From a virus: a stretch of 21,663 bases of DNA. The stretch is from positions 1 to 21,663 of the IMG/VR virus record IMGVR_UViG_3300042879_001757; one strand, 5' to 3'. A program made the translations under genes and the position numbers. Positions 8,219 to 18,431 of the stretch are shown here, piece by piece. Position 1 is the first letter of the stretch; each line of letters opens with the position of its first letter. Under the pieces are notes generated by a model. The model had not been told where the DNA came from, searched no databases, and saw only the letters and a list, made by a program, of their open reading frames with translations.

Positions 8219-8238
8219 GGCCATCAACGAACAACGCC

Positions 8239-8484
8239 ATGTACGCCAGCATCAACATCAAGACAGGGGACATCGAACTCGCAGTCTGGAACAACCACAC
8301 CGACGACGAGATGATTGTCACCACCGCCAACCTGCACGACATTACCAGCCAGCCGGTCGAGGATGGCAGCCCGCGCCGCTGGTGCGAGATGCCTGAGGAC
8401 CTGATGCGTGAGCATGTGGAGACCGTGCTCGACTGCAAGGCATCAGACATGGGCTACACCCTCCGCGAGTTCTACTGGTTCTAA
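8239..8484 (+). CDS. Small early protein of unknown function
   Basis: An 81-residue acidic protein, first gene of the rightward early operon. The ATG at 8239 is chosen because it lies about 15 bases after the predicted transcription start; an in-frame upstream start at 8173 would lie before the promoter. The N-terminal half reads as beta strands (ASINIKTGDIELAVW); the C-terminal half is helical and Asp/Glu-rich (MPEDLMREHVETVLD), ending in REFYWF. First-gene position and acidity fit a host-takeover or DNA-mimic-like protein, but that is conjecture. Confidence 0.7.
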   Translation: MYASINIKTGDIELAVWNNHTDDEMIVTTANLHDITSQPVEDGSPRRWCEMPEDLMREHVETVLDCKASDMGYTLREFYWF

Positions 8485-8504
8485 CCATCAACACCACCAT
8501 CAAT

Positions 8505-8741
8505 ATGGAACGCTTTGACTACCTCTGGGCCACCTTCGTTCAACGCGTGAGCGATGCCCGCACGACCAACGACCGGAAGGCGATGCTGGCTCTGCGCCTC
8601 GCTGATGCCCTCGACCGCCTCGACATTCTTGCCCGCTCTGCACAGAGCTTCCGCAACGCAGGCTGCAGCATCCCTGAGCGGAACCGCCGCAACTACCGCC
8701 TGACCAAGATCCGCATCAACCTCCTCCTCGATAACATCTAA
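8505..8741 (+). CDS. Small helical protein of unknown function
   Basis: A 78-residue, largely alpha-helical basic protein. Its C-terminal part (NYRLTKIRINLLLDN, about 63-77) resembles the end region of the next gene product (NNWRVTRIKLTETEAKL), so the two may be diverged paralogues. No family recognised. The A/C-rich gap before it (8485-8504) has no terminator or promoter, in keeping with one early operon. Confidence 0.7.
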   Translation: MERFDYLWATFVQRVSDARTTNDRKAMLALRLADALDRLDILARSAQSFRNAGCSIPERNRRNYRLTKIRINLLLDNI

Positions 8742-8747
8742 CCAGCC

Positions 8748-9035
8748 ATGAGCATGACCAAGAACTCCCAAGCTTACCAGGACTACTTCGCAGAGCGCGA
8801 CTATGACCTGGAGTACCGCGAGCATGCCTACCTCGCCGAGCGCAACTACCTTGAGCACCTGCGCAGCAGGCTCATCGAGGACCTCAAGCTGTACGGCGAC
8901 CACATGATGCAGAGCCTCACCATCGGCGAGAGCGACCGCATCAGCACCAACAACTGGCGGGTGACCCGCATCAAACTGACCGAAACCGAGGCGAAGCTCG
9001 CGGCCCTCAACGGCGAGCGCAATATCAACAAGTAG
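8748..9035 (+). CDS. Small acidic helical protein of unknown function
   Basis: A 95-residue protein, helical and rich in Glu, Arg and Tyr in its first half (YFAERDYDLEYREHAYLAE), ending in TEAKLAALNGERNINK. It may start at 8748 or at the in-frame ATG 8754. The last 17 codons plus both TAG stops and the start of the next gene are duplicated 596 bases downstream (9581-9641), so the two-gene cassette behind it was added next to its 3' end. The C-terminus shows similarity to the preceding gene product. Confidence 0.7.
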   Translation: MSMTKNSQAYQDYFAERDYDLEYREHAYLAERNYLEHLRSRLIEDLKLYGDHMMQSLTIGESDRISTNNWRVTRIKLTETEAKLAALNGERNINK

Positions 9036-9045
9036 TAGACATGGA
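8985..9045 (+). repeat. Left copy of the 61-bp direct repeat flanking the Gly-X cassette
   Basis: This segment covers the last codons and two tandem TAG stops of the 95-residue gene and the first five bases of the next gene. It matches 9581-9641 at 60 of 61 positions; the single difference is T at 9023 against A at 9619. Identity ends abruptly on both sides. Confidence 0.95.
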
Positions 9046-9334
9046 CAAGAGCATTCTGACAATTGATGGCATGGAATACGTCCGCAAAGATGCGCAGGCT
9101 ATCGGTGATGTGCGTATCATCGTTGCCGACCGTGGATGGGTGTTCGTTGGCAACTGCCACGACAATGACGACGGTAGCGTGACAATCACCAACTGCCGCA
9201 ACATCCGCTTGTGGGGGACTACACAAGGACTTGGTGAGCTTGTGAATGGGCCGCTTCAAGACACCAAGCACGATGCTTATGGAACCGTTCGATGCACGCC
9301 AATCGTGACAATTGCAGTCAATAAAGGATGGTGA
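9041..9334 (+). CDS. Small phage protein with the 'RLWGTTQGLGEL' signature (DUF6948-like)
   Basis: A 97-residue soluble protein. After beta strands with a DRGWVFVGNC segment (about 30-39) comes NCRNIRLWGTTQGLGEL (51-67) and a C-terminal strand TPIVTIAVNKGW. The motif order 'strand, IRxWGTTxGLGEL, xGP, C-terminal strand' is one I know from many small phage and bacterial proteins of unknown function (Pfam DUF6948, name from memory). It is the first gene of a cassette enclosed by the 61-bp direct repeat, and its stop overlaps the start of the Gly-X repeat gene by one base (TGATG). Members of this family are often encoded beside such Gly-rich repeat proteins, so the two may work together. Confidence 0.75.
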   Translation: MDKSILTIDGMEYVRKDAQAIGDVRIIVADRGWVFVGNCHDNDDGSVTITNCRNIRLWGTTQGLGELVNGPLQDTKHDAYGTVRCTPIVTIAVNKGW

Positions 9335-9576
9335 TGGATAAATACATCCTTTTGCTCGGCAACGGCGACGGCACCGGCTACGCCTACGGCTACGGCGACG
9401 GCACCGGCTACGGCTACGGCGACGGCTACGGCTACGGTGACGGCAACGGCTACGGCGAGGGTGACGGCTTCGGCAACGGCGACGGCACCGGCACCGGCTA
9501 CGGCACCGGCGACGGCGACGGCTACGGCGACGGCACCGGCGACGGCTACGGCTTCGGCGAAGGCACCGGCTATTGA
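9334..9576 (+). CDS. Gly-X dipeptide repeat protein
   Basis: An 80-residue protein: an eight-residue hydrophobic head (MDKYILLL) and then 36 consecutive dipeptides, 35 with Gly first (one Ala) and the second residue drawn mainly from Tyr, Asp, Thr, Asn, Glu and Phe. There is no Lys, Arg or Cys in the repeat, so it is acidic and tyrosine-rich, likely disordered or able to self-associate. The start at 9334 overlaps the previous stop (TGATG); an in-frame ATG lies at 9328. The DNA is a degenerate GGC-NAC hexanucleotide repeat, so the length can change by six bases without loss of frame. Function unknown. Confidence 0.75.
   Translation: MDKYILLLGNGDGTGYAYGYGDGTGYGYGDGYGYGDGNGYGEGDGFGNGDGTGTGYGTGDGDGYGDGTGDGYGFGEGTGY
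9361..9573 (+). repeat. Degenerate GGC-NAC hexanucleotide repeat
   Basis: About 35 head-to-tail six-base units of the type GGCGAC, GGCTAC, GGCACC, GGCAAC and GGCTTC encode the Gly-X protein. Longer blocks such as GGCGACGGCACCGGCTAC recur, which points to growth by slippage or unequal recombination. All three forward frames are largely open through the repeat, which creates spurious long reading frames on both strands. Confidence 0.95.
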
Positions 9577-9580
9577 TAAC

Positions 9581-9641
9581 ACCGAGGCGAAGCTCGCGGC
9601 CCTCAACGGCGAGCGCAAAATCAACAAGTAGTAGACATGGA
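9581..9641 (+). repeat. Right copy of the 61-bp direct repeat flanking the Gly-X cassette
   Basis: It matches 8985-9045 at 60 of 61 positions. Here the segment is a remnant: the codons for TEAKLAALNGERKINK no longer belong to a plausible gene, but the two TAGs and ATGGA are kept, so the ssDNA-binding protein gene retains the same start context (five bases after the last TAG). This copy probably marks the original junction and the left copy the duplicate, or the reverse. Confidence 0.95.
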
Positions 9642-10104
9642 GAACAAGAAGCAACTGGAGGAGATGACGCTCAAGAACGTGAGTGTCAAGTGGGCCAAGG
9701 TCCACGAGCCGGGCAAAGCCTACGAGGACACCGCGCCGAAGGAATGGAGCATCAACTGCTACGTCAACGACGAGGACCGCGATGCGCTGATGGCACGCGG
9801 ATGCAACCCGAAGGAGGACAAGGACGGCAATGAGTACTTCATCGCCAAGCGCAGCACGGTCACCAAGGCTGGTGCCCAGACGACGCCACCCATCGTGGTG
9901 GATGCCAAGAAGGCCGTCTTCACCGACGAGGTCGGCAACGGGTCCGTCTGCAATGTGGCGGTGACGCTCATCCCGTGGGCCAAGAACAAGCGCACCGGCG
10001 TGAAGCTGTACCTGCGCGGTGTGCAGGTGCTGACGCATGTGCCACACAGCAAGGGCGGTGCCGACGTGTTCGACGCCGTGCCGATGGACGGGGACGTGTT
10101 CTAA
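9637..10104 (+). CDS. Single-stranded DNA-binding protein (T7 gp2.5/DUF2815-like)
   Basis: A 155-residue protein that would coat ssDNA during phage replication and recombination. It fits the gp2.5/DUF2815 pattern: an opening strand LKNVSVKWAKVHEPG, EWSINCYV, a middle with KRSTVTKAGAQTTPP, then GNGSVCNVAVTLIPWAKNKRTGVKLYLRGVQVL (about 92-131), and an acidic tail ending in Asp-Gly-Asp-Val-Phe. A C-terminal aromatic residue after acidic residues is typical of SSB and gp2.5 tails that contact polymerase and helicase. Downstream replication genes support the role. Assigned from pattern, not from a unique catalytic motif. Confidence 0.75.
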   Translation: MENKKQLEEMTLKNVSVKWAKVHEPGKAYEDTAPKEWSINCYVNDEDRDALMARGCNPKEDKDGNEYFIAKRSTVTKAGAQTTPPIVVDAKKAVFTDEVGNGSVCNVAVTLIPWAKNKRTGVKLYLRGVQVLTHVPHSKGGADVFDAVPMDGDVF

Positions 10105-10106
10105 CG

Positions 10107-10310
10107 ATGGAGCAGGCCACCGACGATATGGTGTGGGGCCTCATCAACAGGCTGCAAGGGGCGGAGGGGTCCAACCTCTCCCCCCGAGCAGTGGCCCGCA
10201 TCCATGAGATCATCACACAATGTCAAACCAATGGCCACCCAGACCGAGGCACGCAGACTGAGCAGGCACGCTGGCTGGCCGATAGAATGTTCAGAGATGA
10301 AGATAAGTGA
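10107..10310 (+). CDS. Small acidic protein of unknown function
   Basis: A 67-residue helical protein starting two bases after the SSB stop. It contains SPRAVARIHEII (about 25-36) and ends in ADRMFRDEDK. No domain recognised. It overlaps the next gene by 14 bases. The tight spacing argues for co-translation with the SSB and the alpha-CTD-like protein; nothing more specific can be supported. Confidence 0.65.
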   Translation: MEQATDDMVWGLINRLQGAEGSNLSPRAVARIHEIITQCQTNGHPDRGTQTEQARWLADRMFRDEDK

Positions 10311-10608
10311 GACCAAGCTGAGCAACCGGACGAAGAACGCCCTGCTGGATGCCGGCATCGAGACGCTGGACGACCTGCCCAGCTACGACGAGCTGAAGCA
10401 AATACGCAACCTTGGTAAGATGTCACTCTACCAGATTGAGGAACTCAAGAAGGAGATGGAGGTCATCCCCGACAAGGTGGACCTGCGTGACTACTTCGCT
10501 GGGCTGGCGATGCAGGCATTGATAGCCGATGGCATGGATGGCTATAGCAACGTGGCGGAGCATGCCTATGCACATGCCGATGCCATGCTCAACGAACGCA
10601 ACCGATGA
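10297..10608 (+). CDS. RNA polymerase alpha-CTD-like helix-hairpin-helix protein
   Basis: A 103-residue protein. Residues 5-55 align with the C-terminal domain of bacterial RNA polymerase alpha: KLSNRTKNALLDAGIETLDD and then QIRNLGKMSLYQIEEL match the first helix and the NLGKxSL hairpin. By alignment with E. coli alpha, the DNA contacts R265, N268, G296 and S299 are kept (R11, N14, G40, S43), while C269 is Ala and K298 is Met. Residues 63-103 (DLRDYFAGLAMQALIA, then AYAHADAML) form a second helical module I know from many small phage proteins. A stand-alone alpha-CTD could occupy UP elements, bind host regulators or redirect host polymerase. The ATG at 10297 is preferred because the homology begins there. 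Confidence 0.75.
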   Translation: MKISETKLSNRTKNALLDAGIETLDDLPSYDELKQIRNLGKMSLYQIEELKKEMEVIPDKVDLRDYFAGLAMQALIADGMDGYSNVAEHAYAHADAMLNERNR

Positions 10609-10817
10609 AGAAGAAGGAACTCTTTGACCACCGTGAGCACCGCTGCTGGATAACTGGCGGAGGCCGCTCCTACAAACCTGAGACACTCTATGGCAAGCAC
10701 ATTGACCGTCAAAAGCAAGTGGCTGGACAAGCCGTGGGAACCGGAACCAGGAAGCAAGCAAGGCCCAGCGATGAGCTACCTGCACGACGGGCAGGTCAAG
10801 CATCTAAGCTGGGCTGA
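10605..10817 (+). CDS. Possible small basic protein, or 5' part of a frameshifted gene
   Basis: A 70-residue frame starts at an ATG overlapping the alpha-CTD gene stop (ATGA), a good coupling signal. Its first half (MKKKELFDHREHRCWITGGG) looks coding; the second half (GTGTRKQARPSDELPARRAG) reads like an off-frame shadow of the Myb-like gene that overlaps it by 128 bases. Either a short overlapping gene, or one original gene broken by a +1 change near the AAAA run at 10711-10714. No family recognised. Confidence 0.35.
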   Translation: MKKKELFDHREHRCWITGGGRSYKPETLYGKHIDRQKQVAGQAVGTGTRKQARPSDELPARRAGQASKLG

Positions 10818-11121
10818 GCTTCAGGCCGGTGAGCGCGTCGGCAGCGAGAGCTACCTCGACTATGCGTTCGGGGCACAGCCGCCATCATCTGGGCGAGGCG
10901 GCTGGGAGCTGTTCGAAAACCGCCCTGGTATCACCGAGGAGGACCGACCGGACGACGACCTGATGGCTAACGGCACACATCGTTGGACCCTTCAAGACAC
11001 CGCCACGCTGATACGCCTTGCCAAGCTACAGGTTGACTGGATGACCATCGCTCTTATCGTCAAGCGGACACCATCCGCTTGCAGGGCAAGATGGAATAAG
11101 CTCGTTCCGGGTTTCCAGTGA
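10690..11121 (+). CDS. Myb/SANT-like DNA-binding protein
   Basis: A 143-residue protein. The C-terminal 46 residues (about 97-142) have the three regularly spaced tryptophans of a Myb/SANT repeat: W99, W117 and W135, each 18 apart, in HRWTLQDTATLIRLAKLQ, DWMTIALIVKRTPSACRARW. This is the pattern of a three-helix Myb unit whose third helix (RTPSACRARWNKL) contacts DNA. The N-terminal 90 residues are Pro/Gly/Glu-rich and without recognised domain. It is the last gene of the early operon; a symmetric AT-rich palindrome follows. Role could be transcription control or DNA tethering. Upstream the same frame opens at 10654, so the true start may lie in a disrupted region. Confidence 0.7.
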   Translation: MASTLTVKSKWLDKPWEPEPGSKQGPAMSYLHDGQVKHLSWAELQAGERVGSESYLDYAFGAQPPSSGRGGWELFENRPGITEEDRPDDDLMANGTHRWTLQDTATLIRLAKLQVDWMTIALIVKRTPSACRARWNKLVPGFQ

Positions 11122-11123
11122 AC

Positions 11124-11156
11124 CTACCCTCCTTCCTCCCTATATATATAGGGTAG
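11124..11156. repeat. Nested palindromes at the end of the early operon
   Basis: CCCTATATATATAGGG (11138-11153) is a perfect 16-base palindrome. CTACCCT (11124-11130) and AGGGTAG (11150-11156) form a second, overlapping inverted repeat, so the two stems exclude each other. No T-run follows. It lies three bases after the Myb-like gene stop. It may slow read-through, bind a protein, or serve as an easily melted site. Confidence 0.6.
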
Positions 11157-11217
11157 TGACCAACTTTCGATGTTGAGCAAAAAACAAGCTTCACAAGCGG
11201 AATAGTGGAATGGACTT

Positions 11218-11263
11218 TATTTTTGGGTCCATGTCGAAAGAGTAGAGAAGTGTTCTAACTTTG
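11218..11263 (+). promoter_or_regulatory. Promoter candidate(s) for the IbrA/EctC/IbrB cassette
   Basis: Two exact matches to the Bacteroidota -7 box lie here: TATTTTTG (11218-11225) and TAACTTTG (11256-11263). Neither has a good TTG at the usual 19-21 base distance, so the -33 element is weak. The second is better placed: a start near 11268 would begin the transcript right at the first hairpin of the structured leader. The stretch is AT-richer than the flanking genes. Confidence 0.5.
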
Positions 11264-11268
11264 CCGGT

Positions 11269-11392
11269 CCATGCAATAGGGCATGGAGGCTGGGTCAGCA
11301 GCCATGAGAAACAACGCCAAACACATCGGCCCTCACGGGCACCTGAAACTCTCTGACCGGGGTGGATGGTGAACGTGGGGGCCGACCTTTTT
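11269..11392 (+). ncRNA. Structured leader RNA with terminator-like 3' hairpin (attenuator or riboswitch candidate)
   Basis: Between the -7 box at 11256 and the IbrA-like ATG at 11398 lie a 6-bp hairpin (CCATGC 11269-11274 with GCATGG 11281-11286), a 5-bp hairpin (GGCTG 11288-11292 with CAGCC 11299-11303), and a long-range perfect 7-bp stem (TCGGCCC 11326-11332 with GGGCCGA 11379-11385) followed within two bases by TTTTT (11388-11392). CATGG 11282-11286 can instead pair with CCATG 11302-11306, so alternative folds exist. The T-run ends five bases before the ATG. This layout fits transcription attenuation or a small terminated RNA. It matches no riboswitch class that I recognise. Confidence 0.45.
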
Positions 11393-11397
11393 GCATC

Positions 11398-12696
11398 ATG
11401 AGAGTTTACAACCAAACAAAAAATGTGTACGAGGCAGCAAACGAACGCCTTGACTACATATTCAAAAATTTTTCTCGTATCTACGTGTCATTTAGCGGAG
11501 GCAAGGACAGCGGTGTAATGCTGAACCTTGTGCTTGACTATATGAGGCGTAACGGCATCACCAAAAAAATTGGTTTGATGACGCTTGACAACGAGGCGAA
11601 TTACGAGCAGTCGCTTCAATTTATGCACAGCATTGTTCGGAACAACCTGGACTTGCTTGATGTGTATTGGTGCTGCCTTCCGATTACGCTGCCATGCACC
11701 GTTAGCCAATACGCAGTTGAATGGCAATGCTGGGGAGAGCGAGACAAGGAGCGTTGGATTAGGCCAATGCCACAAGATTCCTATATCGTAAACATGCAGA
11801 ACCACAATTTCACGTGGTTTAAGGAAGACATGAATTACGATGAGTTTTGGGACAGATTTGGAGAATGGTATGCACAGGGTGAGCGCTGCGCCTGCTTAAT
11901 CGGCATCCGTACATCAGAAAGCCTGAACCGATTTCGCGCTATCATGAACAAGCGCAAGGAAATGCTTGATGGAAACATTTGGACAAAGCGCAACGGCGAA
12001 CACGTTTATAACTGCTATCCTATCTACGATTGGAAGACAGAGGACATTTGGACCGCAAACGCCAAGTTTGAATGGGAGTACAATACCCTATATGACATCT
12101 TTTACAAGGCGGGGGTGCCTGTTGCCAAGATGCGCGTGGCTTCTCCGTTCATGAGCGAAAGCAAATCAAGCCTTAACCTGTACAGGGTAATTGACGGTCA
12201 CACATGGGCCAAGCTATGTAGCCGCGTTCAGGGCGCAAACTTCGCGGTCCAATATGGCAAGCAAATGGGCTACAGGAACTTTAAGCTTCCGCCCAACCAT
12301 TCGTGGAAATCATTTGTAAAGTTCCTTCTTGATACTCTGCCAAAAGAGGTGTCTCAAAATTTTAAGTCGCGCTTCATCCAGTCGATTAAGTTTTGGGCAA
12401 GGGTGGGGCGCGGACTGCCTGAAGAGGTCATTTCCGAGCTTGACAAGCACGGAGTTACCTATGATGTAAACGGGACAACGCCACATGGAGGAAACAGCCT
12501 GAGAAGGATTAGGATTTGGCGTGTTCCTGACCACCTGGACATGATCGACTTTCACAATTCGATGGTAACATCTTGGAAGCGATTTGCCGTTACCATTTTG
12601 AAGAACGACCATACCTGCAAGTACCTTGGCCTTGCGCCAACAAAGGAGCAGGCCATTCGTCAACGTCAAATAATGGAAAAGTACAAGAAGCTATGA
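11398..12696 (+). CDS. IbrA-like PAPS reductase-fold protein (DUF3440)
   Basis: A 432-residue cytosolic protein of the adenine nucleotide alpha-hydrolase/PAPS reductase superfamily. Residues 29-40 (YVSFSGGKDSGV) hold the SGGKDS pyrophosphate-binding loop. Cys-containing and aromatic segments fill the middle, and the C-terminal half carries the DUF3440 pattern (LCSRVQGANFAVQYGKQMGY, then HSWKSFVKFLLDTLP). Family members include E. coli IbrA, which with IbrB raises expression of Eib surface proteins; the reaction is not established. The start at 11398 matches the family start; an in-frame GTG at 11362 lies inside the leader hairpin. The stop overlaps the EctC-like start by four bases (ATGA). 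Codons are clearly AT-richer than in the genes on either side, which suggests recent transfer. Confidence 0.88.
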   Translation: MRVYNQTKNVYEAANERLDYIFKNFSRIYVSFSGGKDSGVMLNLVLDYMRRNGITKKIGLMTLDNEANYEQSLQFMHSIVRNNLDLLDVYWCCLPITLPCTVSQYAVEWQCWGERDKERWIRPMPQDSYIVNMQNHNFTWFKEDMNYDEFWDRFGEWYAQGERCACLIGIRTSESLNRFRAIMNKRKEMLDGNIWTKRNGEHVYNCYPIYDWKTEDIWTANAKFEWEYNTLYDIFYKAGVPVAKMRVASPFMSESKSSLNLYRVIDGHTWAKLCSRVQGANFAVQYGKQMGYRNFKLPPNHSWKSFVKFLLDTLPKEVSQNFKSRFIQSIKFWARVGRGLPEEVISELDKHGVTYDVNGTTPHGGNSLRRIRIWRVPDHLDMIDFHNSMVTSWKRFAVTILKNDHTCKYLGLAPTKEQAIRQRQIMEKYKKL

Positions 12697-13130
12697 AGAC
12701 CGTAAGGATAAAAGACATTCAGGGAACAGACCGCGAAGTGCATTGTCCACGCGGTGGGTTCATTAGTTACCGCACGCTGCTGGAGCGTGATGGAATGGGA
12801 TTTTCCATGCACAAAACGGTGATACCAAAAGGAGCGCCACAGCATTGGCATTACAAGCACCATCTTGAAGCTTGCTATTGCATCAAGGGCAGTGGCGTGT
12901 TGACCAACCTTGAAACAGGCGATGTTTATACCGTTGAAGTTGATACGGTGTACGTGCTTGACAACAACGACGACCACACATTTCAGGCGCTTGAAGATAC
13001 CGTTCTAATTAGCGTCTTTAACCCTCCGGTGACAGGTGGCGAAGTTCACCAGGCAGACGGATCATACTCACAAACAACAAACCAGCACGACTATGCAAAC
13101 GGAAAATCAAATGACCACTGGGAGCGTTGA
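12693..13130 (+). CDS. Ectoine synthase (EctC)-like cupin
   Basis: A 145-residue cupin strikingly similar to L-ectoine synthase: GTDREV (11-16), RDGMGFSMHKT (32-42), HYKHHLEACYCIKGSG (53-68), TVYVLDNNDDHTF (85-97) and SVFNPPVTGGEVH (107-119). The EctC iron ligands (Glu57, Tyr85, His93 in Paenibacillus EctC, numbering from memory) correspond to E59, Y87 and H95 with identical spacing. R27, T42, F109 and E117 also match ligand-binding positions; F23, H40 and S107 replace Trp, Asn and Cys. No ectA or ectB is nearby, so ectoine synthesis is unlikely; another small amide- or amino-acid-derived substrate is more plausible. The last 20 residues (Gln/Asn/His-rich) are beyond the family end and overlap the IbrB-like gene. 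Confidence 0.88.
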   Translation: MKTVRIKDIQGTDREVHCPRGGFISYRTLLERDGMGFSMHKTVIPKGAPQHWHYKHHLEACYCIKGSGVLTNLETGDVYTVEVDTVYVLDNNDDHTFQALEDTVLISVFNPPVTGGEVHQADGSYSQTTNQHDYANGKSNDHWER

Positions 13131-13695
13131 CGGCGGATACGTTTCCCCTGTCTACAACGTACTTCGCGTTCCGCTTGAGAAAATCAAAGCGAACGATTAC
13201 AACCCAAACTCTGTTGCGCCTCCTGAAATGGAGTTGCTTGAGACGTCCATTTGGGAAGATGGGTACACCCAGCCGATTGTAACCTTCTATGACAAGGACC
13301 AGGATACCTACATTGTTGTAGATGGTTTTCACCGATACACCGTAGGAAGGACATCGCAGCGCATCCGTGAGCGCGAGGGGGGAACGTTGCCAATTGTTGT
13401 CATCAACAAAGAGCTTGGTGACCGAATGGCATCAACAATTCGACACAACCGTGCTCGTGGCTCTCACAACATCGAACTGATGAGCAACATCGTTGCAGAA
13501 CTTGTTGAGATGGGCAAAAGTGACCGATGGATTTGCAAGCACATCGGGATGAGCGTTGACGAACTATTGCGCTTAAAGCAAATTACAGGCGTTGCGGCCT
13601 TGTTTGCTAATCGCGACTTTAGCGATAGCTGGACAAGCGATGGGATGGAGTTTGATGACGCCGCGTACGAAGCGCAAATTGAAGGAGGAGAATGA
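13093..13695 (+). CDS. IbrB-like ParB/sulfiredoxin-fold protein
   Basis: A 200-residue protein. Residues 22-110 form a ParB/Srx domain: VLRVPLEKIKANDYNPN, then DGYTQPIVTFYD, then YIVVDGFHRYTVG (73-85), where DGFHR is the nucleotide-binding GxxR-type motif, here of the Srx/IbrB form. HNRARGSHN (118-126) is the second ParB motif. Residues 142-163 (KSDRWICKHIGMSVDELLRLKQ) resemble an HTH. There is no ParA partner, so it is not a plasmid partition protein; the pairing with an IbrA-like gene points to IbrB. ATG 13093 overlaps the EctC-like gene by 38 bases; ATG 13111 is an alternative with a 20-base overlap. Confidence 0.85.
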   Translation: MQTENQMTTGSVDGGYVSPVYNVLRVPLEKIKANDYNPNSVAPPEMELLETSIWEDGYTQPIVTFYDKDQDTYIVVDGFHRYTVGRTSQRIREREGGTLPIVVINKELGDRMASTIRHNRARGSHNIELMSNIVAELVEMGKSDRWICKHIGMSVDELLRLKQITGVAALFANRDFSDSWTSDGMEFDDAAYEAQIEGGE

Positions 13696-14105
13696 CGTCG
13701 ATTTGGCATCCATATCATTCATGGGAGTGCTTCCATGCTGGGATGTATGATTACAGCGTGGGGCCTCCTATGGATGAAGGGAAGGAAATGTATCGCCGCT
13801 TTCTGTCTAACGCTGAGCTGTTTAATGAGCAGGCGCGGAGACTTTCATCGGAATGGCCGATTTCATGCGAACACTTTTTGACCAAGGATGCAATGAACAG
13901 GGTTGCATGGATTGGACAGGCGGCAATGTGCATCCATTCCGGATTGTCCAGAAGGTACAGGGGCGGGTTTCACTTGCTTGATGCCAAACAAAAAATTTCC
14001 GCCAATAGAATTGCCATTGAAGTTCTAACAGACTGGAAACATGAATACTCGCGAAAGAATACAGCACTACATTGGAACCTGGAAGCAAAGGGGATATTTG
14101 GATGA
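13692..14105 (+). CDS. Conserved phage protein of the IbrA/IbrB neighbourhood
   Basis: A 137-residue protein starting in ATGA overlap with the IbrB-like stop. Key features are IWHPYHSWECFHAGMYD at the start and RLSSEWPISCEHFLTKDAMNRVAWIGQAAMC (about 50-80), then a helical end. The signature EWPxSCExxLT...NRxAWxGQAAxC is one I recall from phage proteins usually encoded near IbrA-like and ParB-like genes; no function is known. The conserved Cys and Trp pattern suggests a folded enzyme-associated domain. The last 21 codons overlap the following gene. Confidence 0.75.
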   Translation: MTSIWHPYHSWECFHAGMYDYSVGPPMDEGKEMYRRFLSNAELFNEQARRLSSEWPISCEHFLTKDAMNRVAWIGQAAMCIHSGLSRRYRGGFHLLDAKQKISANRIAIEVLTDWKHEYSRKNTALHWNLEAKGIFG

Positions 14106-14301
14106 CATACCTGATGAGGTGCCAAATGAACTTGCCGATGAACTACTTGCGCCGTCATACAAGGCAATAGCAATAGCGTTGCTTGAGAACGACATGCATC
14201 TGACGTCTCTAGGATACGAAGCAAAATTTAGCAAGTGGTACGATGTGTTAAAGAGGATTGAAATTGAAGCAAGGCCAAATAATCAACTAATGTTGTTTTA
14301 A
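14041..14301 (+). CDS. Conserved small cassette protein ending in a clamp-binding-like motif
   Basis: An 86-residue helical protein with TWKQRGYLDDIPDEVPNEL (13-31), then APSYKAIAIALLENDMHLTSLGY (37-59) and KWYDVLKRIE (65-74). I know this pattern from small phage proteins found with IbrA/IbrB-like genes. It ends in NNQLMLF: QLxLF at the extreme C-terminus matches the consensus by which bacterial proteins dock on the DNA polymerase beta sliding clamp. The start at 14041, inside the previous gene (65-base overlap), is supported by the family-like N-terminus MNTRERIQHYI. It closes the AT-richer cassette. Confidence 0.75.
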   Translation: MNTRERIQHYIGTWKQRGYLDDIPDEVPNELADELLAPSYKAIAIALLENDMHLTSLGYEAKFSKWYDVLKRIEIEARPNNQLMLF

Positions 14302-14343
14302 GCACAACACAAAACTGAAGATGGATTGCTGATTTGTAAAAAA

Positions 14344-16755
14344 ATGACTTTTATGAACAAGTTCTCAGTCTTCCGCGACATCAACAATGTCGACCAGCCC
14401 CACGACCGCGACATGGCGTGGGTCATTGACCGCATCCGCTCCGGTGGCAACCGTGCCCTCATCGAGCGCATCCGCACCATCGAGACCAAGGCCGAGCGTG
14501 ACAAGCTCAAGAAGCAGCTGATGTCCATCTGCTTCTCCGGCACCTTCCTGCGCCGTGAGGACCGTAGCATCGAGCGGCACAGCGGCTACATGGTCGCCGA
14601 CTTCGACCACGTCAGCGACTTGGAGGCGCTGCGCACCACCCTCTGCGCGGACAAGTACACGCACGTCCTTTTCACCAGCCCCAGCGGTGACGGCCTCAAG
14701 GCGGTATTCAAGGTGCCTGCAAACGCCAAGGAGCACAAGGCACGGTTCCGCGCCCTGATGGAGTACTTCAACAGGGAGGACTTCGACCCGAAGAACGGCA
14801 ATTTGTCCCGTGTCTGCTACGAGAGCTGGGACCCGGACATCTACCACAACCCAGACAGCGATGTATTTACCGCCATCGTGGAGGACCAGCCATACCGGTT
14901 CGCCACCGAGCGCCCTCGCGTGGTCCTGCGCAGCGCAGACCGCATCATCGCCAAGCTGCAGAAGTGGAGTGACCGCCGGTTTCCCATCACCGAGGGGCAG
15001 CGCAATGACAACCTGTTCAAGCTGGCATCAGCAATGAATAGGTTTGGCGTAGCCAAGCTGTCGGCCGAGACGCACCTCAAGCAGTATGCGCAGGAGGGCT
15101 TCGACGTGGATGAGATCATGCGGGTGGTGGATAGCGCCTATCGTGACACCAGCGCACACGGAACGGAGGGCTTCAATGACGACGAGACGGAGGAGCACAT
15201 CCGCAGCCGCTACCAGGCTGGCGCCTGTTTCGATGACATCGACCAAGAGGTCGAGCCTTTCATCAAGGACAAGGCAGAGCGGGCAGCCACTATCGAGGAT
15301 GTCATCGGGGACGTGGACAGCAATAGCTGGTGGTCCAAGGACAAGCAGGGCAGGGTCAAGGTGGATAACTACAAGTTCAAGAAGTTCCTTGAGCTACATG
15401 GCTTCCGCAAGTTCTATCCGACGCCGGGGGGCATGTTCGTGTTCGTGCAGGTGTCCAAGAACCTCGTGCGCAACTGCTCCACGACCAACATCAAGGACTT
15501 CGTGATGCACTTCATCGAAGGCATCGGCGACCGTGCCCTATACAACTTCATGGCCGGGAAGCCTGGCATGTTCAAGGATGAATACCTGAATATGCTGGAC
15601 GCGCTCACGCTGCCGTTCGCCCGTGACACAGCCACCTATGGCACGCTGTTCTACCTGAACGCAGCGGTTCGCATCTATAAGGGTGGCGGCGTCGAGCTGG
15701 TAGACTATGCCGACCTGGGGGCCTATGTCTGGGCAGATCATATCATACAGCGCACCTATGCCCATGACGCTATCGACGATGGCGAGTGGTGCCGGTTCGT
15801 GGAGCTTATCAGTAGCGAGAACATGGAGCGGGTCAAGGCACACCGCACCACGATGGGCTACCTCCTCCACGGCTACAAGGACAAGACCAACAACGTGGCC
15901 GTCATCTACAACGATGGCGTCCTCAATGAGAACCCCAACGGGGGGAGCGGCAAGGGCATCATCATGCAGGCCATCGGCAAGCTCAAGCGGGTCAGCATCA
16001 TTGACGGCAAGACATTCTCATTTGACAAGGGCTTCCCATACCAGACGGTAACCGCCGACACGCAGATACTGCTGTTCGATGATGTGGGCAAGCGGTTCCA
16101 GTTCGAGCGGCTATTCAGTGCCATCACTGAGGGCCTTGAGGTGGAGAAGAAGAACAAGGATGCCGTGCGCATCCCTGTTGAGCTATCACCCAAGGTGGTT
16201 ATCACCACCAACTACACGGTGCAGGGCAAAGGTGGCAGCCACGAACGGAGGAAGTGGGAGGTGGAAATGTCGCCGTACTTCAACGCTAACAGGAGGCCCA
16301 AGCAGGTGTTCGGTCATAACCTCTTCGAGGATTGGGATGAGCTGCAATGGCAGCGGTTCGACAATTACATGGTCAGGTCGTTGCAGATGTACCTTGAGCA
16401 TGGGCTATACGAATGCAGCTGGGAGACGCAGCACATCCGCAAGTTCATCAACGAGACCAGCCCGGAGTTTTGGGAGTGGCTGGATGATGAGAGCAAGGAG
16501 CCGAAGCTGAGGCTGGGAGAGGTGCATTACCGGGCACAGCTGATGGAGGCGTTCGTGAAGGAATACCCGGACTGGGACCGGTTCAAGTACAACCTGACCG
16601 GCCGAAGATGGGCTATGTGGCTGGAGGCATACGGCGCTTTCAAAGGCTGGGAGGTGATGAGCGAACGGAACCAGAACGGGCATTACACCAAGTATGTGCT
16701 GCCTGGCACACCGAAGGAAGAGCAGGAAGTTGAAACCGACGAAGTACCATTCTGA
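14344..16755 (+). CDS. Primase-helicase: BT4734/VirE-N-type primase fused to SF3 helicase
   Basis: An approximately 800-residue replication protein. The N-terminal 200 residues (KFSVFRDI, then YMVADFDHVSDLEALR and HVLFTSPSGDGLKAVFKV) follow the BT4734-like/VirE N-terminal domain found in Bacteroidota mobile elements and phages, related to archaeo-eukaryotic primases. A linker of about 250 residues follows. The C-terminal half is a D5-like superfamily 3 helicase: Walker A NPNGGSGKGI (about 527-536; Gly replaces the usual Ser/Thr after Lys) and Walker B QILLFDDV (about 571-578), then SPKVVITTNYT as a sensor-like segment. It would unwind DNA and prime replication. The start is 14344 or 14353; the longer form from TTG 14326 is unlikely. 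Codon use returns to GC-rich here, unlike the preceding cassette. Confidence 0.88.
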   Translation: MTFMNKFSVFRDINNVDQPHDRDMAWVIDRIRSGGNRALIERIRTIETKAERDKLKKQLMSICFSGTFLRREDRSIERHSGYMVADFDHVSDLEALRTTLCADKYTHVLFTSPSGDGLKAVFKVPANAKEHKARFRALMEYFNREDFDPKNGNLSRVCYESWDPDIYHNPDSDVFTAIVEDQPYRFATERPRVVLRSADRIIAKLQKWSDRRFPITEGQRNDNLFKLASAMNRFGVAKLSAETHLKQYAQEGFDVDEIMRVVDSAYRDTSAHGTEGFNDDETEEHIRSRYQAGACFDDIDQEVEPFIKDKAERAATIEDVIGDVDSNSWWSKDKQGRVKVDNYKFKKFLELHGFRKFYPTPGGMFVFVQVSKNLVRNCSTTNIKDFVMHFIEGIGDRALYNFMAGKPGMFKDEYLNMLDALTLPFARDTATYGTLFYLNAAVRIYKGGGVELVDYADLGAYVWADHIIQRTYAHDAIDDGEWCRFVELISSENMERVKAHRTTMGYLLHGYKDKTNNVAVIYNDGVLNENPNGGSGKGIIMQAIGKLKRVSIIDGKTFSFDKGFPYQTVTADTQILLFDDVGKRFQFERLFSAITEGLEVEKKNKDAVRIPVELSPKVVITTNYTVQGKGGSHERRKWEVEMSPYFNANRRPKQVFGHNLFEDWDELQWQRFDNYMVRSLQMYLEHGLYECSWETQHIRKFINETSPEFWEWLDDESKEPKLRLGEVHYRAQLMEAFVKEYPDWDRFKYNLTGRRWAMWLEAYGAFKGWEVMSERNQNGHYTKYVLPGTPKEEQEVETDEVPF

Positions 16756-17981: not shown

Positions 17982-18238
17982 TTACGAAGCAGGACAAGTT
18001 CAACGCCAAGTGGAATGGACTGAAGGCTGGCAAATGGGCCGTCAGTCCATACGGAAGAATATTCAAGGTCGGACCTGTATCTGAATGGAAAAAAGAAGCA
18101 AGCGGAAGCATTACGGATAATGGCACTACTATCTATAGTGGTCCTGACCAAAAATGGGCGACAGGAATTAATGAAGTTCAGATTGGAGACATGTTCCAAG
18201 AACTTGTTAAGTCAATTCGTCTGACTCATGACTATTGA
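17978..18238 (+). CDS. Small protein of unknown function
   Basis: An 86-residue protein coupled to the helicase stop (ATGA). It is rich in Lys, Trp and Gly and reads as beta strands (KWAVSPYGRIFKVGPVSEW, then SGSITDNGTTIYSG) followed by a short helix (MFQELVKSIRL). No family recognised. Its codons are AT-richer than in the helicase before it or the nuclease after 18428, as in the next gene, so this pair may be a later insertion. Confidence 0.65.
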   Translation: MITKQDKFNAKWNGLKAGKWAVSPYGRIFKVGPVSEWKKEASGSITDNGTTIYSGPDQKWATGINEVQIGDMFQELVKSIRLTHDY

Positions 18239-18431
18239 GAGTGCGGTAGGCATGAGCATCGAAGATGTTCATGCTCTGTATGAGCGAGATGGATGGACAT
18301 GGTACCAGCCGTTCAGCGACTACAGAATAGTGTTCAATCATTTAGATGGCAGATGGGTTCGATATTACACCAGCCTGCATGAAGATGGAATTGAGCGCGT
18401 CGATGGAATTGATAACTATCATAACCCATGA
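18228..18431 (+). CDS. Small acidic protein of unknown function
   Basis: A 67-residue Asp/Tyr/Trp-rich protein starting 11 bases before the preceding stop. SIEDVHALYERDGWTW (10-25) is a short helix and turn, and DYRIVFNHLDGRWVRYY (30-46) reads as paired strands. No domain recognised. The stop overlaps the VRR-NUC start by four bases. Codon use resembles the preceding gene and not the nuclease. Confidence 0.65.
   Translation: MTIESAVGMSIEDVHALYERDGWTWYQPFSDYRIVFNHLDGRWVRYYTSLHEDGIERVDGIDNYHNP

Follow-up and report, generated by a model that had tools for sequence, protein, structure and literature searches.

The window analysed here, a 21.7-kb virus record (21,663 nt; IMG/VR identifier IMGVR_UViG_3300042879_001757), carries at positions 11398-14301 a cassette of five overlapping genes that encode an IbrA-like protein, an EctC-like (ectoine synthase-like) cupin, an IbrB-like protein and two small conserved proteins, referred to below as g4 and g5. 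The five genes and the coordinates given for them in the initial annotation are exact, and so are the successive overlaps of 4 bases (ATGA) between IbrA and the cupin, 38 between the cupin and IbrB, 4 (ATGA) between IbrB and g4, and 65 between g4 and g5. Profile matches also agree with the families that had been assigned to IbrA, the cupin, IbrB and the two flanking genes, which are a Myb-like gene upstream (PF13921, E-value 9.9e-07) and a primase (BT4734-like/PriCT_1) downstream. The features of the locus, in window coordinates, are the following.

11398..12696, plus strand: IbrA-like protein with a PP-loop ATP pyrophosphatase domain and DUF3440 (PF11922, 1.8e-58; PF01507, PAPS_reduct, 2e-10; phrog_2302, 1.6e-108)
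11494..11511, plus strand: PP-loop SGGKDS, IbrA residues 33-38, found in 154 of 157 relatives
12693..13130, plus strand: EctC-like cupin (PF06339, Ectoine_synth, 1.8e-43; NF009806, 150.5 bits; PDB identifier 5bxx, 2.6e-27)
12759..12761, plus strand: cupin Phe-23, in place of the Trp-21 that does not vary in ectoine synthase (Trp in 0/87 phage cupins)
12867..12977, plus strand: cupin iron triad Glu-59, Tyr-87 and His-95, equivalent to EctC Glu-57, Tyr-84 and His-92 (87/87, 87/87 and 86/87)
13093..13695, plus strand: IbrB-like ParB/Srx-fold protein with a segment resembling a helix-turn-helix (HTH) (phrog_2159, ParB-like, 9.1e-78; ParB_N, 3.3e-4)
13321..13335, plus strand: IbrB nucleotide-pocket motif DGFHR, residues 77-81 (DG[FYW]HR in 155 of 158 relatives)
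13692..14105, plus strand: g4, a conserved all-helical protein, family unassigned (152 relatives by hidden Markov model (HMM); AlphaFold2 (AF2) model with a predicted local distance difference test score (pLDDT) of 95.4)
14041..14301, plus strand: g5, a stand-alone mini-protein related to the DUF3440 C-terminus of IbrA (hhalign)
14284..14298, plus strand: g5 C-terminal clamp-binding-like motif QLMLF (motif type in 30 of 90 g5 tails)
11408..14358, plus strand: DNA absent from the sister phages L327 and L328, i.e., the insertion interval, its ends fuzzy by a few bases (alignment to L327)

The five products recur together in many unrelated phages. IMG/VR was scanned with profiles of the cupin, g4 and g5, giving 212, 412 and 279 relatives, respectively, of which the best 80 of each were read, and overlapping loci were merged into 163 groups. 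A cupin is present in 88 groups; one of these, a faecal contig (L009), was rejected as a member of the module, being a Trp-containing orphan EctC with neither IbrA nor IbrB, which left 87 non-redundant phage cupin loci. The co-localisation search proposed in the initial annotation finds the cupin with both IbrA and IbrB in all 47 groups of complete context (cupin over 3.5 kb away from either end of the contig), and g4 and g5 are present in 45 of them. The usual order is IbrA-cupin-IbrB-g4-g5, with many permutations and always on one strand, and neighbouring products may be fused: the cupin to IbrB in 20 of the 85 loci holding both, and also in Mycobacterium phage Gaia, IbrB to g4 in 51 cupin-less groups, and g4 to g5 in a few. 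In a tree of IbrA the cupin-bearing loci form a single clade of 84 tips (support 0.98), 83 of which have the cupin (the exception is L149), indicating that the cupin joined IbrA once. The closest unsaturated pairs of cupin genes have dN/dS of about 0.05-0.07, as expected of purifying selection; these values and the 87 loci dispose of the concern that the cupin might lie between ibrA and ibrB only here and be free of constraint. The phages concerned span contig GC (guanine plus cytosine) contents of 0.26 to 0.64. A first scan of cellular genomes for the cupin found none, and among the best 80 IbrB loci of bacterial genomes IbrA and IbrB are alone in 76 and the full module occurs in two, both contigs of metagenome-assembled genomes (MAGs), in which no other EctC was found. 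The comparison of these loci indicates that the products are inherited as a unit across many phages and that the module is, by descent, an elaborated clade of IbrAB.

In the window itself, the GC content of the cassette is about 0.47-0.48 against 0.59-0.60 elsewhere, the lowest-GC stretch of 2.9 kb coincides exactly with it, and its codons are AT-richer, as had been noted, with GC at third positions (GC3) of 0.43-0.58 in the five genes against 0.69-0.89 in most flanking genes. On either side of the cassette site the sister contig L327 (36.6 kb) shares about 90-94% identity with the window (window 8235-11407 aligns with L327 2868-6006, and window 14359-16753 with L327 6001-8395) and has no DNA between the bases matching window 11407 and 14359; the cassette is absent throughout the L327 record, and the junction is the same in a second sister contig, L328. 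The cassette had also been credited with a leader of its own, which does not hold: L327, which lacks the cassette, has an almost identical copy of the 276-base leader (11122-11397) immediately ahead of its primase start, and this leader therefore belongs to the recipient phage. A promoter scan gave one site against 4.6 in shuffled sequences and an Rfam scan gave no match, and no promoter, leader or riboswitch proper to the cassette was found. The cassette was either inserted between leader and primase or lost from the sisters, and its foreign composition favours a gain. We reject such a composition as a general property of the module, since over 73 loci module GC follows phage GC (r 0.94, mean difference -2.7 points) and the deviation is confined to this window; low GC here thus marks a recent transfer. 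The linkage in many phages, the single gain of the cupin in the IbrA tree and the L327 junction bear out the earlier suggestion of a conserved and horizontally acquired multigene system. Elsewhere in the window, two further small genes of low GC3 (0.46-0.47) at 17982-18431 possibly represent another recent insertion, a small open reading frame (ORF) of GYGDGTGYG-type repeats lies at 9328-9576, and a 64-base segment is apparently common to 8985-9048 and 9581-9644, as seen from cross-matches to L327.

The AF2 model of IbrA (pLDDT 84.6) matches the folds of CysH and FAD synthase (E-values 6e-07 and 6e-06), and its best Foldseek match is CysH (PDB identifier 6vpu, E-value 5.9e-07), which places it in the PP-loop nucleotide-hydrolase fold closest to CysH, FAD synthase and CysD. 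The CysH catalytic motif ECG[LIV]H is absent from all 157 IbrA sequences, and we therefore reject IbrA as a reductase of 3'-phosphoadenosine 5'-phosphosulfate (PAPS) by mechanism. There is also a weak match to a DndC HMM (3.3e-08), and the DndC equivalog model TIGR03183 gives 21.2 bits against a cut-off of 290.4. We do not claim that cysteines were gained together with the cupin, as a few cupin-less relatives also have C100 and C407. SNF2-type helicases are encoded upstream of many bacterial ibrA genes.

The cupin exceeds the NCBIfam cut-off for ectoine synthase (150.5 bits against 128) and, beside the iron ligands listed above, Ser-23, Arg-25, Thr-40 and Tyr-52 are practically invariant over the 87 phage cupins. 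The position of Trp-21 is occupied by Phe in 55 of them, Gly in 27 and other residues in five, and none has a replacement Trp within 8 columns of it. All of 437 EctC proteins have this Trp, as do orphan EctC proteins, and it is required for activity, of which the W21A variant keeps 9.7% (PMC6344544). Asn-38, considered as a second diagnostic loss, was rejected because Sphingopyxis EctC also has His there. With the iron triad and substrate residues kept and Trp-21 lost, we infer for the cupin an ectoine-type ring chemistry on a different substrate. Three unrelated phages have EctD-like (EctD/PhyH) genes between ibrA and the cupin (L021:5120-6001, L022:5150-5995 and L099:3290-4135), which match TIGR02408 with E-values of 5.9e-85, 6.7e-51 and 1.4e-55, all below the equivalog cut-off, and keep the HSDFETWH signature; that profile found no further EctD relatives in IMG/VR. 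The score of the cupin and these EctD-like genes could be taken to mean that the phage helps its host to make the stress protectant ectoine or an ectoine-like osmolyte, just as a viral ectoine synthase has been read as osmotic help in an estuarine virome (PMC13079714). Such an auxiliary metabolism is, however, very improbable, given the loss of Trp-21 in all 87 cupins and the low activity of W21A, the absence of EctA and EctB from all 36 module-bearing records in which they were sought, the two MAGs that carry the module and no other EctC, and the absolute tie of the cupin to IbrA and IbrB, which have no known role in ectoine synthesis. Viral "ectoine synthase" genes of the kind that the 2026 virome paper reads as osmotic-stress auxiliary genes may belong to the module and not make ectoine.

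A DUF3440 and PP-loop protein adjoining a ParB/Srx-fold protein constitutes an IbrAB pair, and this is the arrangement found here. IbrB has, in addition to DG[FYW]HR, the motif HNRARG, and its profile gives weak matches to ParB, Noc, SbnI and free serine kinase; with 18.2 bits against a cut-off of 58.45 for TIGR00180 (ParB/RepB/Spo0J family), IbrB is not a partition ParB. A regulatory pair would account for several of these features, with IbrB binding DNA in a nucleotide-dependent manner and the cupin sensing or making the ligand that switches the regulator on in infection: the definition of IbrAB rests on its activation of prophage eib genes (Sandt 2002, in the passage of PMC10434257 that cites it), ParB-fold regulators such as VirB use CTP switching (PMC10770331), IbrB combines its ParB/Srx fold with the HTH-like segment, and in 20 loci the cupin is fused to it. 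On the other hand, the invariance of the whole EctC metal and substrate shell over the 87 sequences is easier to reconcile with catalysis than with sensing, in three phages the module includes EctD-like enzymes, and neither a clamp motif nor a place among replication genes, both described below, is expected of a transcription activator; a regulator is therefore an unlikely explanation in our view. The weak matches of IbrB to free serine kinase and SbnI also agree with a counter-defence or takeover function on a small molecule or the nucleotide pool, in which a host nucleotide, signal or cofactor would be the substrate of IbrA and the cupin, and IbrB would be a SerK/Srx-type NTPase or kinase. 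PP-loop enzymes act on nucleotides and amino acids, relatives of EctC and EctD act on free small molecules, and sister phages differ in whether they have the module, a pattern also shown by defence and counter-defence genes. This explanation, which is doubtful and which we place after the regulator, is opposed by the clamp-docking motif and the constant replication neighbourhood, which point to DNA, and by PADLOC, which finds no matching system except for weak DndC matches.

The confident all-helical model of g4 has no match in the PDB at an E-value of 0.001 or less. The last protein, g5, aligns with IbrA residues 319-419 (hhalign probability 97, E-value 3e-11), which identifies it, by this profile comparison, as a stand-alone paralogue of the C-terminal part of IbrA. 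QLxLF is a form of the bacterial beta-clamp-binding motif, and a motif of this kind ends 30 of the 90 stand-alone g5 proteins, exactly at the last residue in 24; the tails that bear it comprise 28 distinct ones at 70% identity, shuffled tails lead one to expect 0.8, and outside the tails of these g5 proteins there is one such motif in 7816 residues. The enrichment supports the docking on the clamp that had been suggested for the last protein, and g5 probably docks on the beta sliding clamp. Judged from sequence, Erf, SF2 helicase, DnaB, primase, YqaJ-type nuclease, SSB and Sak4-like genes recur beside the module. Modification enzymes that regularly accompany it were considered and rejected, since the genes that recur are those of replication and recombination. 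On one contig of a Planctomycetota MAG with the full module, a beta sliding clamp (DnaN) gene immediately precedes ibrA (L247:3197-4279).

An exchange with METHYLTRANSFERASES is seen in Pseudoalteromonas phage XCL1123, in which the module stands between two conserved blocks: its place there is taken by a DNA methyltransferase with a small ORF in the sister phage H103 and by a DNA methylase in H40/1, and the complete XCL1123 genome has no PF01555 or PF00145 methyltransferase. Likewise, L327 has an SF2 helicase and an N6/N4 DNA methyltransferase (3.9e-22) after the primase (L327:8417-10780), and none is present at that place in the window. A general rule of exchange was rejected, as methyltransferases coexist with the module in a number of records, which excludes a general exclusivity of the two, and none occupies the corresponding slot in the two Streptococcus thermophilus phage sisters looked at. 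With two cases, related enzymes in H103 and H40/1, and this coexistence, the slot exchange is only suggestive of a DNA-directed role.

Several other genes are found within or beside the module. In L149, a 1-Cys peroxiredoxin (L149:3868-4614) replaces the cupin between ibrA and the ParB/Srx-fold ibrB, and a close relative of it lies near ibrB in L088 (L088:5822-6508). In Bacteroides and its relatives, the gene immediately preceding ibrA encodes a conserved protein of about 140 residues, family unassigned (L276:4251-4694 and 29 similar loci). A gene upstream of Bacteroides ibrA that resembled a GNAT found no Pfam support as such. Nuclease-like genes of homing or recombination type occur inside the module, of the GIY-YIG type in L017, L027 and L008 and of the PD-(D/E)XK type in L072, L144 and L227, and gp105 of phage Nebkiss is annotated as GIY-YIG-like.

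Gene linkage, fusions, the conservation of catalytic residues, the clamp motif, horizontal gain and the methyltransferase slot exchange are the observations on which we base the reading that we rank first, with a probability of about 0.38, i.e., that the module is a replisome-docked phage complex for DNA modification or anti-restriction that uses ectoine-type chemistry. The regulator, the small-molecule function and the ectoine pathway follow in this order, and the four together do not take up the whole probability. A DNA- or nucleotide-modifying or anti-defence role, as the initial annotation proposed, is plausible, and the methyltransferase swaps in sister phages point there. Formation of a complex, its activity on DNA, the order of steps, the nature of the added group, the chemistry and the target are put forward as a model. 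The five products would assemble into a single complex, which would be recruited to phage DNA during replication and modify either this DNA or a nucleotide or small group destined for it, and so allow escape from host restriction. IbrA would activate a carbonyl, carboxylate or phosphate with ATP, by the adenylation that is typical of PP-loop enzymes, and the iron cupin would then close a ring in the manner of ectoine synthase on a substrate other than N-gamma-acetyl-diaminobutyrate, its product perhaps being hydroxylated in some phages by the EctD-like dioxygenase. IbrB would bind nucleotide and DNA and thereby gate or target the reaction, g4 would serve as a structural linker, and the C-terminal QLxLF of g5 would dock the complex on the beta sliding clamp. 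More tentatively, we propose that the PP-loop enzyme, ParB/Srx protein and EctC-like cupin, in some cases with the EctD-like dioxygenase, act while docked on the clamp and equip phage DNA or its nucleotides with a novel group, which may be a cyclic amidine (ectoine-like) or another one.

Several points weigh against this model. Two thirds of the g5 proteins have no recognisable clamp motif, the methylases of H103 and H40/1 have the N-terminus in common and do not count as independent, up to 9 of 34 records have a methyltransferase along with the module, and the S. thermophilus phages have a two-gene ibrAB slot without a methyltransferase in both sisters looked at. The modified nucleoside is a prediction from the genes, and the cupin itself may not touch DNA, since a small molecule is what the deep tunnel of the EctC active site accommodates (PMC6344544). 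In E. coli, moreover, the only role known for IbrAB is the activation of prophage genes.

To our knowledge, no biochemical role has been assigned to IbrA and IbrB since they received their names in 2002, nor is a function known for orphan EctC proteins. The module ties the two together in phages, and the clamp motif and slot exchange hint strongly at an action on DNA; should the DNA-modification reading be right, this would be a chemistry of an entirely new category. The question is directly testable, because the module is present in cultured phages (Gaia, Nebkiss and XCL1123) and absent from a close sister (H103).

We find no description of the exact combination in the searchable literature, in agreement with the initial annotation, except that the cupin and ParB fusion already bears the annotation "ectoine synthase/ParB multidomain protein" in Mycobacterium phage Gaia and Pseudoalteromonas phage XCL1123. 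Among known systems, the phosphorothioation systems Dnd, Ssp and BREX type 4 likewise pair a PP-loop sulfur-type enzyme (DndC/SspD) with a ParB-fold protein (DndB), and this pairing is a precedent for the one proposed here. The module nevertheless differs in that IbrA falls well short of the DndC threshold (21 against 290 bits), its cupin, g4 and g5 have no Dnd counterpart, and no cysteine desulfurase or DndD/E was recognised among its recurrent neighbours. A second precedent is 7-deazaguanine insertion by Dpd (DpdA with DpdB), in which the ParB-like ATPase DpdB works with a base-modifying enzyme (PMC12839542); no tRNA-guanine transglycosylase (TGT)-type enzyme is seen in the module. A 2025 survey of ParB-CTPase fusions gives DNA methyltransferases as frequent fusion partners of ParB folds in phages, and its main text names no cupin, ectoine or PAPS-type fusion (PMC12704722); these phage fusions resemble the cupin-IbrB fusion in joining an enzyme domain to a ParB fold. 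With EctC and EctD the module shares the iron triad, most of the substrate residues and, in three phages, an EctD-like gene beside the cupin, and it differs from them in the loss of Trp-21, the lack of EctA and EctB and the obligatory partnership with IbrA and IbrB. IbrAB of E. coli ECOR-9 and YbdN/YbdM of K-12 have, like the module, a DUF3440 PP-loop protein followed by a ParB/Srx-fold protein, in phages and bacteria alike, and to this known two-gene pair the module adds the cupin, g4 and g5, inherited as a unit.

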